From an uncultured Bartonella sp. (GTDB lineage Bacteria > Pseudomonadota > Alphaproteobacteria > Rhizobiales > Rhizobiaceae): DNA of 64,000 nt. Both the position numbers and the translations under genes were made by a program. Every line of letters starts with the position of its first letter. Position 1 is the stretch's first letter. The stretch covers positions 348,482-412,481 of the forward strand of contig NZ_CAMLFE010000002.1 in the NCBI RefSeq assembly GCF_946479275.1, read 5' to 3'. Positions 15,483 through 22,674 of this stretch are shown here, piece by piece. The notes under the pieces were generated by a model that saw nothing but the letters and a program-made list of their open reading frames with translations, was not told the origin of the DNA and did not search any database.

Positions 15483-15516
15483 AAAAGCGGCCGGTTAATA
15501 TTGACCGACCGCTTTT
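15483..15516 (-). terminator. Hairpin terminator after the DUF992 gene
   Basis: Long stem AAAAGCGG-CGGT / ACCG-CCGCTTTT (15483-15495, 15503-15516) with one mismatch and an A/T-rich loop. On the minus strand it runs into TTTTTATTTGCG, suiting termination of the DUF992 gene, and could work in both directions. Confidence 0.7.
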
Positions 15517-15626
15517 AAACCTGAAATTAATTTTCGAATGTTAATTGATAAACGAATGTTCGGGAATTGCGATTAAGCTATTATGATTGGCCTATACTGT
15601 CGCAACCCCGTAAAAATCAAACTCTA

Positions 15627-16220
15627 TCAGTGCTTCTTGTGATGAGCGGCAACGCGTTTATGATGCACATTGGCTTTCTTGTGATGAACCACGGCTTTCT
15701 TATGGTGATAAACCGCATGTTGTTCAGCATAAGCAGGAGCCAACGACATTTTCGATACACCAAGGGCAAGGTTCAAGCCTTCATGGGCATCAACACTCAA
15801 AGGCTGCAATGTGAGACCATTGGCTGGACCGAAGCCAAGAAGCTGGCTACCGGCACCGGCTGCAAGGCTGATGCTTGATCCAACACCACCATAATTACCT
15901 GCAAGCGATCCATTGGAATGGGCATTAGGCGAAGTTGCAAGAACCCACCATGTCATTTTGGTGCGGCCTGTTACACCGAGGTCAAGACCGTAATTTTCGA
16001 TACGGCCGACATAATGGTCGTTGATCGAATGACCGTTAATCGGGATAAATTCGCAATCAAGCGCTTTTGAAGAGCTTACAAATTGTCCAATACCGCCCTT
16101 GCTGTCGCAGGTAAGCGTACCTGATACCAAGCCCGTTGCACCAGCTTGTGTTTGCAGGGATAAAAGCGCAGTAGCAGCAAATGCCAAGGATGCAAAAAGT
16201 GTTTTCTGATGTTTCATCAT
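15627..16220 (-). CDS. DUF992 family secreted protein with His-His-Lys-Lys repeat tail
   Basis: 197-aa exported protein. Signal peptide about 1-27 (LFASLAFAATALLSLQTQAGA). The body is a DUF992 domain: VSGTLTCDSKGGIGQFVSSSKALDCEF and RIENYGLDLGVTGRTKMTWWV through LTLQPLSVDAHEGLNLALGVSKMSL. DUF992 proteins are common in Rhizobiales, and their function is unknown. Unusual is a C-terminal tail of about 30 residues made of five near-repeats of (Y/V/A)HHKK, giving ten or more His and many Lys. Such a tail could bind divalent metal, anionic polymers or nucleic acid; this is inference. A His-rich LTXXQ protein is the next gene upstream. Confidence 0.85.
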   Translation of the reverse strand: MMKHQKTLFASLAFAATALLSLQTQAGATGLVSGTLTCDSKGGIGQFVSSSKALDCEFIPINGHSINDHYVGRIENYGLDLGVTGRTKMTWWVLATSPNAHSNGSLAGNYGGVGSSISLAAGAGSQLLGFGPANGLTLQPLSVDAHEGLNLALGVSKMSLAPAYAEQHAVYHHKKAVVHHKKANVHHKRVAAHHKKH

Positions 16221-16382
16221 TTACGTTCCTTCCTAAATGCTAAACTCGTTCAACAACGAAAGTTCCAAAACGTAGTTTCGACTGGAATATAAGCTCTCGA
16301 ACGCCGAAACACTAATGAATTAATAAATTATTACAAATGTGTGATTTTAAATAGGCCTTTTTTAAAAAAGACAAGACAAGAA

Positions 16383-16413
16383 AACCGAAAACCCCGGCCT
16401 TGCGACCGGGGTT
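16383..16413 (-). terminator. Terminator after the LTXXQ protein gene
   Basis: Perfect 8-bp stem AACCCCGG/CCGGGGTT (16390-16397, 16406-16413), extendable by CCGAA/TTCGG; on the minus strand it is followed by TTCGGTTTTCTTGTCTTG. It lies about 55 bases after the gene. Confidence 0.75.
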
Positions 16414-16466
16414 CGGAACTCTTCATTTAATATGATTGAAAGTATTAAGCTTATAAAAGCTGTCCA

Positions 16467-17051
16467 TTATGGATGGGGGTCTGCAGGAGGTTCCGGCGCA
16501 TCAGGCCCTTTCGGACCTTCAGGGCCATCTTTCGGCCCCGGATGCGGCAAAGCATAGCGTTCCAGTTTTGCTAGCTGGTCGGCGTCCAGAACTTTACGCA
16601 GTTCACTTGCGGCTTCCTTGAATTTTTTAGCTTTTTCAGCACGATCAAAAGCGCGATCAGCAATCGGTTCACCGAAAATCGGTTTTACCGCATCGGGAGC
16701 CGGTTTTGCATCCGGAGCTGGTGGAGGCGGCGGGGTAAGGTCAACCAGATCAACAAGGCTTGAAGTATATTTACGCCATGCATCAAGCTGGTTTGAACGA
16801 ATACCAACAGCGGTTTCCATTGCTGAAAGCTTTTCAGCCATATGCATTCCGGCATGAGGCCCTCTGAAATGTTCATGTCCCTTTTCCGGCCCCTTCGGGC
16901 CTTTATCGTCGGGCCCGTTATGGTGATGAGGCGGCTTTTGATGATGTTCACCATGTGCAGGCGGTGGTGTCGGCTCTGCCAAAGCAGATGAAACAACAGC
17001 CGGGGCAAGCAATGATGAAGCAAATACTGACGCAAGCAGTAATTTTTTCAT
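16467..17051 (-). CDS. His/Pro-rich periplasmic LTXXQ (Spy/CpxP-like) protein
   Basis: 194 aa from the ATG at 17051, which follows GGGAG; the track's longer start lacks support. Signal peptide MKKLLLASVFASSLLAPAVVSSALA. A His/Pro/Gly-rich segment follows (HHQKPPHHH, then KGPEKGHEHFRGPHAGMHM), then a helical core with two LTXXQ-type repeats (NQLDAWRKYTSSLVDL and LRKVLDADQLAKLERYA) separated by a proline linker, and a Gly/Pro/Asp-rich tail. Relatives (Spy, CpxP, zinc-responsive ZraP-like proteins) are periplasmic chaperones or metal sensors. The role here is inferred; the His clusters suggest metal contact. Confidence 0.75.
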   Translation of the reverse strand: MKKLLLASVFASSLLAPAVVSSALAEPTPPPAHGEHHQKPPHHHNGPDDKGPKGPEKGHEHFRGPHAGMHMAEKLSAMETAVGIRSNQLDAWRKYTSSLVDLVDLTPPPPPAPDAKPAPDAVKPIFGEPIADRAFDRAEKAKKFKEAASELRKVLDADQLAKLERYALPHPGPKDGPEGPKGPDAPEPPADPHP

Positions 17052-18619: not shown

Positions 18620-19237
18620 TTGGCCGATAAAAAACTCGAAGAAACCCACCTTATCAGCGATGTCAAACTTCCGAATGATGATAAAAGCCTTAAAGCTATA
18701 ATCAATGAGGCGAACGGCCGAATTACCGTTTGGGAAGGTGGGGTATTTATTCCGCTTGCCTTTCTGGTATTGGGAATTGCGCTCATTGGCACGGCCTATC
18801 AGAATTTTCAAATAGGAAAGATGATGACAATGGTCATTCTTGGTGCCTTGGCGTTGTTATTATTTGTCATTCTGATCCGCACGATGATGCGTCGCCGTAT
18901 CCCCTATATGGTACTTTCCCCGGAAGGGTTGGAAACCACAGTGTTCAAAACGCCTGTACCATGGCGCGGAATAACTGATTTCCAGATTAATTCTTCAAAA
19001 AGCAATTCGATGAACATCGCCGTAGGTATGGAATTTGTTATTGACGACAAATTTTTACCTGAAGAAAACGCGAAATGCCGTGGCGGCTCCTATTATGACA
19101 AGGCAAAAAAGAAATTGATGATTTCCGGTTTCAATTTCCGTCTTGAAACCAATCGGGATAAATTGATCAACGAGCTTGATACATATCGCAATGCAGCTCT
19201 CGCCCGCCATAAACTTGAAATGAAAAAGTATAAATAA
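18620..19237 (+). CDS. Membrane protein with two TM helices and a PH-like C-terminal domain, unknown function
   Basis: 205 aa, initiated at TTG 18620 seven bases after GGGAG; no ATG is available in a sensible place. A charged N-terminus (about 1-45) is followed by two helices (GVFIPLAFLVLGIALIGTAYQ and MTMVILGALALLLFVILI), then MRRRIPYMVLSPEGLETTVFKTPVPWRGITDFQIN, the typical layout of bacterial PH-like (bPH) domains in which a membrane hairpin precedes the beta-barrel domain. The C-terminus is basic. No neighbour suggests a role. Confidence 0.65.
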   Translation: MADKKLEETHLISDVKLPNDDKSLKAIINEANGRITVWEGGVFIPLAFLVLGIALIGTAYQNFQIGKMMTMVILGALALLLFVILIRTMMRRRIPYMVLSPEGLETTVFKTPVPWRGITDFQINSSKSNSMNIAVGMEFVIDDKFLPEENAKCRGGSYYDKAKKKLMISGFNFRLETNRDKLINELDTYRNAALARHKLEMKKYK

Positions 19238-19958: not shown

Positions 19959-20142
19959 GATCAATACCTCTGTTTTAACTAACGAGGATATAGTGGTCGT
20001 CTTAACAGATTGTTAAGATGTTTGTTAACCATGTTTCCAGCTTTTACCCTGTTAGCGTGTTAGCCGGTTCAAATTTCAACTATTTGTTTAGAGTTGAAAA
20101 AGAGAATTGCCCGCAATGATATTCATTCTAAGGACATTTCTC

Positions 20143-22674
20143 ATGAAGTGCTTACGTCTAAAACTTCACTCGAACTGGTTGGGAGCCACGGCACTCGCAG
20201 GAACCTTGGGAATTGGCATTTTGTCCCTGACAGCTATTCAACCGGTTGTCGCACAATCGATTTTTCTTTCCGGCGGTGGTGGTGGCGGCGGGTCGCTAAC
20301 TGGACTTGGCGGCTATGGTGCGGGTGCTCTTATCACTTCTACTAAACCTGACGTTCCAAATTATGGTGGTTCCGGAAACGGAATTACCGGCGGCAAAGGC
20401 GGATTAGGAGGCTCTGACAGTATTTCGGGAAAAAACAATCTGACTCCGGAAGAAGCTGAATCGCTCGGAATTACAATGTCCTCCCCTACAAAAGGTTCAA
20501 ATGATCAAGACAATAATGGCAAAGGCGGACTAGGCGGAACAATCACAGCAACGTTATCAAAAGATATAACAGTTGAAAGTATTATTCTTGAAGCCGGTAA
20601 CGGTGGCGAACCAGGACATGCCCAAGACAACACAACGGGTGCTTTAGGCATCGGCGGGGACGGCGGCGATGTGATATTAACCGGTGACGATAGAACAATT
20701 ACTATCAATGATACTATAAGCCTCACGAGTGGCCGTTCCGGTGGTTCCGGTGAACAAAAAAGCAATGGCGGTAATGTTCGTTTTAGGACGGATAAAATTA
20801 TCGTAGGTGCGGACAAAGAAGCGAAGATAAATCTTGAACGCAACGATGGACAACTCTTATTCAGAACTGGGGAATTTGACGCAACAAAGGGCGATGCAAC
20901 TATAAATCTGACTAACACCGAAGCAGCGGGAAACAATAATAATTATGGCGTCAGATTAGGCAATCTGAAAATCGGCATGGGACGTCAAGTCACAATAAAT
21001 GGAAACGGTGATTATAACATTTCATCTTTGATAATCGGAACTCCGGTAAACGAAGCGGTTATAGGAGATGGAAGCGATAACACCATTATTGCACCTGCCA
21101 AATTTTCAACTGAAAAAGATTTGAAATTAGATTCGTCATCAAAGTTAATTTTCTATCTGCCTGAAAACGTGAACAATGGCAGTTCATTATTGAGGATAAC
21201 GGGAAAAGGTAACATTGCCATCAATGATGCTTCGGTGGAGCTAAGGCTTGCCGGAACTGATTTACGTAATTTACAGCCCGGCGATCAAGTCCGATTGATT
21301 GAAGGTCAAGTCATTGGAAATTCTCACAATTCAGATGCGAGCGTCTCTAATGGCGCTAAAACTTGGAATTTCGGAATTGCAACTTCGCAAGATCGGAATT
21401 TGATTGCAGCGCTTAAAGGGCCGACACCTCCTTCAAATACCGGTGATGAAACGGGTAAGGGGAATAATTCGGGAATAAATGATCAATCCGGAAGTAATAG
21501 TGATTCGGGTAAAAACAATAATTCCGGCGATAATAACACTAACGAAAATAATTCCGGAAAAGGAAATGATACCGATAAGCACACCGATAGCGGTTCCAGC
21601 GACAACAGTTCGAATAACCAAAATACCAATTCCGATAATAACAATCAGAATAATGCCAAAGGAAATAATCAAACCCAACCGAATCTTATCGGAAAAGATG
21701 ATGGCAAGGGCAATATTTATACCGATAACTATGGTGCGGTAACAATTAATCGCGCCAAAGCCAATGCCTATTTCCAGAGCAACGCGGCAGCACTCAACGC
21801 TCTTAACTACGGTGCTGACCAGATTGCTTCGATTGACGATTATGTTCTACCGATGGAAGTCAAAAAATTCGGTCAAACTGTTGAAGGCGTTGTTTTCCTA
21901 CAAGGCAGTGGTTTCCGGCAAAAAGTCGAAACGGGAAGCCATATCAAGAATGACGGCTACCATTTGATGGGCGGCGGCGGTATCCGCTATCATGAAGACC
22001 AGGGCAATCTTCTTGCCACCGTCTTTATTGAGCATGGCGATGGTGATTTTGATACCTACCATCAGAGTATTCATGGAAAAGGCGACTTCAGTTACACCGG
22101 CGGTGGCCTTTATACAAAACAGACGTGGGATAATGGCTGGTTTATCGACAGTTCGGGACGCGCCGGACGGGTTAAACGCGACTTCAAGAGTGGCGACATC
22201 GAGAATGGCGGCTTTGATGATAAAAGCTCCAACTATTACGGCTTCCATATCGGCGGCGGTAAGGAACTCGAAGTTTCGCCCGACAACAAACTTACTTTAA
22301 ATGGTCGTTTGTTGTGGACAGAAATCGAGAATTTCTCGACATTGTCAAAGGCTCAAGAACATTTGGGCTTTGATAGTGCCCGCTCTGTTCGCACACATTT
22401 GGGTGCCCGCCTTGACCATAAGGTTACGCAAGAGGCAAAACTTTATGCAGGTGCCGCCTGGGAACAGGAACTTGATGGCGAGATCGAAGGTAAACTCGAC
22501 AGTTACCACGTCGACAAGCCCGACTTCAGTGGTGCAAGTGCCGTCTTTGAAGTGGGCGGCAAATACGAGCAAAATCAGGGAATGCAAGGCTGGGTGGCCA
22601 ATGCAGGTATCAAAGGCGTTGCCGGCAAACGTGATGAAATTGCAGGTAAAGTCGGCGTCGGTTACCGCTGGTAA
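20143..22674 (+). CDS. Autotransporter outer-membrane beta-barrel protein
   Basis: 843 aa from ATG 20143 with AAGGAC upstream; the track's TTG start adds 12 unlikely residues. Signal peptide about 1-35 (LTAIQPVVAQS). The passenger opens with a seven-Gly run encoded by a GGT/GGC repeat, then Gly/Asn-rich beta-helix-like repeats (IGGDGGDVILTGDDRTITI) to about residue 430. A low-complexity Asn/Ser/Asp/Gly linker covers about 435-520. The last ~280 residues form the barrel (LLATVFIEHGDGDFDTYHQ, KLYAGAAWEQELDGEIEG) and end in GVGYRW, a terminal aromatic as required by BamA. Probably a surface adhesin; the target is unknown. Monocistronic, with its own terminator. Confidence 0.9.
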   Translation: MKCLRLKLHSNWLGATALAGTLGIGILSLTAIQPVVAQSIFLSGGGGGGGSLTGLGGYGAGALITSTKPDVPNYGGSGNGITGGKGGLGGSDSISGKNNLTPEEAESLGITMSSPTKGSNDQDNNGKGGLGGTITATLSKDITVESIILEAGNGGEPGHAQDNTTGALGIGGDGGDVILTGDDRTITINDTISLTSGRSGGSGEQKSNGGNVRFRTDKIIVGADKEAKINLERNDGQLLFRTGEFDATKGDATINLTNTEAAGNNNNYGVRLGNLKIGMGRQVTINGNGDYNISSLIIGTPVNEAVIGDGSDNTIIAPAKFSTEKDLKLDSSSKLIFYLPENVNNGSSLLRITGKGNIAINDASVELRLAGTDLRNLQPGDQVRLIEGQVIGNSHNSDASVSNGAKTWNFGIATSQDRNLIAALKGPTPPSNTGDETGKGNNSGINDQSGSNSDSGKNNNSGDNNTNENNSGKGNDTDKHTDSGSSDNSSNNQNTNSDNNNQNNAKGNNQTQPNLIGKDDGKGNIYTDNYGAVTINRAKANAYFQSNAAALNALNYGADQIASIDDYVLPMEVKKFGQTVEGVVFLQGSGFRQKVETGSHIKNDGYHLMGGGGIRYHEDQGNLLATVFIEHGDGDFDTYHQSIHGKGDFSYTGGGLYTKQTWDNGWFIDSSGRAGRVKRDFKSGDIENGGFDDKSSNYYGFHIGGGKELEVSPDNKLTLNGRLLWTEIENFSTLSKAQEHLGFDSARSVRTHLGARLDHKVTQEAKLYAGAAWEQELDGEIEGKLDSYHVDKPDFSGASAVFEVGGKYEQNQGMQGWVANAGIKGVAGKRDEIAGKVGVGYRW

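Follow-up and report, generated by a model that had tools for sequence, protein, structure and literature searches.

The window, which is the whole 64,000-nucleotide stretch of DNA analysed here, comes from a Bartonella genome of 2.57 Mb; at the DUF992 gene the nearest named match is Bartonella apis PEB0122. Two neighbouring genes on the minus strand of the window encode a DUF992 protein of 197 residues (15627..16220) and a 194-residue protein (16467..17051) that appears to be a divergent secreted member of the LTXXQ (Spy/CpxP-type) family. The DUF992 domain (residues 22-160, 15741..16157, minus strand) is matched over its full length by Pfam PF06186 (model positions 6-142 of 143) with an E-value of 1.4e-37 and 129.2 bits (cut-off 22.7), and it also shows a weak match to EipA. 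The domain follows a probable signal peptide with a Met/Lys start, a hydrophobic core and an AxA-like end, for which we provisionally place the boundary after residue 26 (residues 1-26, 16143..16220, minus strand).

Beyond the domain the DUF992 protein continues into a tail of 35 residues (residues 163-197, 15630..15734, minus strand) with the sequence AYAEQHAVYHHKKAVVHHKKANVHHKRVAAHHKKH. The tail contains 10 histidines and 8 lysines or arginines, with a single acidic residue and no cysteine, and its histidine content is far above the background of 2.13% (P ~2e-9). On the minus strand it carries the units HHKK (residues 172-175, 15696..15707), HHKK (residues 179-182, 15675..15686), HHKR (residues 186-189, 15654..15665) and HHKK (residues 193-196, 15633..15644), spaced at exactly 7 residues and followed by a final histidine. 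Hence there are only four HHK(K/R) units plus the last histidine, and not the five (Y/V/A)HHKK units counted in the preliminary description. A search of the whole genome for the pattern CAYCAYAARAAR found 27 sites, with two or more within 100 bp only at the DUF992 tail; other HHKK-rich proteins in the genome were rejected, as no second cluster within 100 bp occurs among these sites. Downstream of the gene, a GC-rich hairpin followed by T's can be seen by eye at 15486-15520 and is absent from the terminator-scan list.

The 194-residue neighbour has no Pfam or NCBIfam match at E<=1, and a PF07813 search of the genome gave no match at this gene. However, a profile built from its orthologues finds a gene in genome G026 with an E-value of 7.9e-35, and because this same gene passes the PF07813 threshold (30.7 bits against a cut-off of 24.3) we regard the neighbour as a divergent LTXXQ protein; a gene in G037 provides a second, weaker bridge. 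The earlier assignment of this protein to the LTXXQ family is thus upheld only by way of an intermediate, although the window protein itself falls below the Pfam cut-off. Its two-part helical layout resembles that of the family (Spy, CpxP and ZraP), as does the motif LDADQ (residues 155-159, 16575..16589, minus strand), where relatives have LTPEQ. The AlphaFold model was too poor for use (pLDDT 48.4, pTM 0.18). The histidines of the neighbour lie in a His/Pro/Gly-rich linker (residues 26-68, 16848..16976, minus strand) containing 9 of them. Among 39 non-overlapping ORFs of the window the DUF992 tail has the highest histidine density per 35 residues and this linker the second highest, and both N-termini look like signal peptides, which bears out the earlier description of two adjoining His-rich secreted proteins. 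Across orthologues the linker holds 6-11 histidines; the form HHQKPPHHH is found in the window only, with HHPKPPHHH in G154, and low-complexity His/Pro/Gly flanks are common among the relatives of this protein.

Between the two genes, the terminator scan places an intrinsic terminator of the LTXXQ-like gene at 16389..16414 (minus strand), a position where five species share a hairpin. A five-species alignment further shows a conserved block and leader preceding the DUF992 gene (16221..16341, minus strand), in which we see a candidate promoter. On the same strand the block includes a conserved AT-rich palindrome, TAATAATTTATTA (16321-16333), and TATATT (16286-16291), and in several species the long conserved leader extends to the DUF992 start codon. 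The conserved terminator makes an operon of the two genes unlikely; they are probably transcribed separately, and with a terminator and a promoter-like block between them, operon structure gives no ground for assuming that they work together. Control of the locus by ChvI/BvrR was considered, and no site was assigned. Rfam gave no match anywhere in the window.

DUF992 is present in 232 of the 398 sampled genomes of the order. Most of about 190 DUF992 proteins end no further than about 10 residues past the domain, in a sample that is non-random, with many best-scoring hits and some loci from metagenome bins with doubtful labels. Apart from one outlier (L183), tails longer than 12 residues are confined in this sample to two groups: this Bartonella clade, with His+Lys tails of 33-49 residues, and Bradyrhizobium/Afipia relatives, with His+Arg tails of 13-21 residues. 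The earlier statement that proteins of this family normally stop at the domain consequently describes most of them and is not a defining rule of the family, since it fails for the other tailed lineage, for the outlier and for the window protein with its 35 additional residues. All the long tails pair histidine with strong positive charge, charge being the steadier feature. In the Bradyrhizobium/Afipia relatives the domain is likewise followed by a C-terminal tail of histidine plus basic residues; in contrast to the Bartonella tail it is Arg-based, shorter and usually found beside a tail-less tandem copy, and by sequence comparison it is a convergent feature of independent origin. Tandem DUF992 genes are seen in these relatives in loci L076-L095 (e.g. 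L080:7983-8510 and L080:8763-9242), where the His/Arg tail usually belongs to the first copy, the second stopping at ELRPGR.

Of the 71 Bartonella genomes in a genus sample, 13 carry orthologues of both genes. The 85%-complete genome G211 carries a DUF992 paralogue only, and no DUF992 gene was found in the sampled small-genome Bartonella, presumably the blood-borne group. The gene order EamA, LTXXQ-like, DUF992 is preserved even in G208 and G212, and apart from G212 the other sampled Bartonella lack the genes of the tail locus. Bee-group genomes have the four-unit tail, which is eroding in G206 and G207, whereas G208-G210 have a longer one with 12-14 histidines, and the number and spacing of units vary across G206-G210. 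All tailed orthologues retain 7-13 Lys/Arg, while histidine falls to 6 in G207, which has 10 lysines. In G212, the most distant carrier, the syntenic DUF992 orthologue lacks the tail and ends in ...VYAEK followed by TAA. No tail-like sequence lies past this stop, and we rejected on that ground a break within a pre-existing tail. This genome nevertheless keeps the His-rich neighbour; the LTXXQ-like gene is a separate gene whose histidine content varies independently of the DUF992 tail.

A single-gene phylogeny based on PheT, including eight tailed genomes, sets all Bartonella apart from five outgroup genomes (support 100/99) and unites the eight in a single clade (100/99) that excludes G212. 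The simplest history would be that the tail was gained once, on the stem of the tailed clade, which includes honeybee-gut species; an older gain followed by loss in G212 is a possible alternative. The DUF992 paralogue in the window's own genome also stops at the domain. The proposal that the tail is a lineage-specific addition is therefore borne out, the tail being missing from the G212 orthologue, from the paralogue and from most other DUF992 proteins, while in the sister species it is neither absent nor random and is conserved at the amino-acid level.

We compared B. apis, B. choladocola and the B. apihabitans group for evidence of selection. Synonymous sites in this set are at or close to saturation. 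Per site, nonsynonymous differences amount to 0.067 in the HHKK codons, 0.192 in the tail spacers and 0.015 in the DUF992 domain, figures that serve as effect sizes and not as tests because the pairwise counts are non-independent. With synonymous sites saturated, HHKK codons that change about threefold less than the spacers imply that the histidines and lysines of the tail have been kept by selection. The histidine and lysine codons are mixed (CAT/CAC and AAA/AAG), and for this reason a recent tandem duplication of the units at the DNA level was rejected. We consider the tail to be real and, on these codon comparisons, under selection.

As to the domain that bears the tail, sequence searches found no solved relatives of either the DUF992 protein or its neighbour, and Pfam showed no PF06577 (EipA) match in the DUF992 protein at E<=1. 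The sole match of a DUF992 profile to the PDB was 5UC0 (EipA; PF06577, DUF1134) with an E-value of 0.39, and Foldseek ranked EipA fifth and seventh using a poor DUF992 model (pLDDT 54.7). The hhalign comparison of DUF992 with EipA gave 76% when signal peptides were included and 70% when they were left off, both below the usual certainty; the score of 34.3 exceeds those of all 60 column shuffles, which reached 24.2 at most, and of reversed profiles, which scored about 13. In the untrimmed shuffle test 2 of 20 controls were implausibly high, which is unexplained and did not recur after trimming. EipA is periplasmic and needed for envelope integrity, is tied to LPS and has a structure like that of a lipid-binding SYLF protein (PMC10787603). 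Both proteins would be secreted alphaproteobacterial beta-barrels, and they align over a Gly-rich C-terminal half. In contrast, the similarity is remote, no tail was noted in EipA, and the window genome has a separate copy of EipA, the one other gene found in an EipA search (G000:C5:48689-49165). The match, weak but repeated by three methods, makes it likely that the beta-rich DUF992 domain is a distant relative of EipA. Furthermore, the Brucella suis DUF992 protein BR0708, which has the same domain over its whole length and is likewise secreted, is among listed outer-membrane proteins (PMC6377625).

The reading that we take as most likely, and hold only tentatively, is that of an EipA-like periplasmic protein anchored to the anionic envelope, in the acidic bee gut, by its pH-titratable polycationic tail. 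In this model the DUF992 protein is secreted to the envelope and probably resides in the periplasm; the tail would carry about +8 at all times from its lysines, and its 9-10 histidines would roughly double the charge between pH 7.4 and 5. In acid, the tail would thus clamp the domain more tightly to anionic components of the envelope (LPS phosphates, peptidoglycan, acidic lipids). The computed net charge of the tail is about +8 at pH 7.4 and about +16 at pH 5, with an assumed histidine pKa of 6.3. In the bee gut the relative abundance of Bartonella is greater at lower pH (PMC8105395), and it is this coincidence with the doubling of charge by pH 5 that leads us to prefer the pH-tuned tether. 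Both envelope binding and its pH dependence are our suppositions. They are consistent with the selected HHKK codons, the EipA match, the BR0708 listing and the restriction of the tail to one Bartonella clade, as well as with the retention of basic charge in all tailed orthologues, in which histidine is less steady, and with the combination of charge and histidine in the independent His+Arg tails. Against this reading, the EipA match is below the usual certainty, the structure model of DUF992 is poor, the tailed Bradyrhizobium/Afipia relatives are not gut bacteria, and the conserved HH pairs would be needed equally by a metal site.

Metal buffering, as the preliminary description suggested, would have periplasmic Zn, Ni or Cu bound by the HHKK tail, possibly together with the His-rich linker of the neighbour. 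Selection has maintained the paired histidines, the stretches ranking first and second in histidine density in the window lie next to each other, and ZraP, an LTXXQ relative, binds zinc. The His-rich metal-buffer tails of SlyD, HypB and Hpn likewise have paired histidines at the C-terminus; they are, however, rich in Asp, Glu, Gly or Cys, whereas the DUF992 tail has lysine beside each histidine pair and almost no acidic or cysteine ligands. No metal gene was recognised next to the two genes, which have separate transcription signals with the conserved terminator between them, and the histidine clusters of the neighbour drift, with G212 having the neighbour without the tail. Joint metal buffering is thus neither supported nor refuted, and we judge a metal-buffering role rather unlikely, if by no means negligible. 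Cationic His-rich peptides can serve both envelope tethering and metal binding, and a pH-tuned envelope patch fits somewhat better than metal storage.

The acid-shock protein Asr of E. coli is a small, secreted, free and disordered protein that also has His/Lys repeats, and by analogy the tail might protect or chaperone other envelope proteins in acid instead of tethering its own domain. The bee gut lowers the pH and the tail charge rises with acid, in keeping with such a role, but the DUF992 repeats form a short tail on a folded-domain protein; we claim no homology and regard this role as improbable. A neutral origin, in which the old stop codon was lost and the read-out grew by slippage, could account for the G212 protein stopping exactly where the tail begins and for the variable units of G206-G210. 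This seems decidedly improbable given that, with synonymous sites saturated, the HHKK codons are conserved and the spacers vary about threefold more, that the mixed codons do not reflect a recent DNA repeat, and that similar tails arose independently elsewhere. Very improbable indeed is capture of heme or another host ligand: His-rich repeats of other proteins do bind heme, but the putatively blood-borne small-genome Bartonella are without the gene and no heme gene was recognised nearby.

Collectively, the tail is a real, selected and lineage-specific addition to a known family, for which the tether mechanism is a proposal. DUF992 is widespread in the order yet named in only one paper of the literature searched, and its probable kinship with EipA offers a first role that can be tested, that of maintaining envelope integrity. 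A selected, clade-specific tail may be a Bartonella adaptation to the acidic insect gut. It is conceivable, if doubtful, that DUF992 and EipA form one envelope superfamily, in which His-plus-basic tails added at least two times independently act as envelope tethers switched by pH, which Bartonella would have gained in the clade with bee-gut species.

Two further features of the region vary between the genomes. In G208 (L255, 170-3625) the window gene at 18620-19237 has four relatives in tandem, against one match in the other compared loci. A large autotransporter-like gene forms one open frame in the window (20107-22674) and two ORFs in B. choladocola (L075:1526-4083), where, judging by its reading frames, it may be broken.
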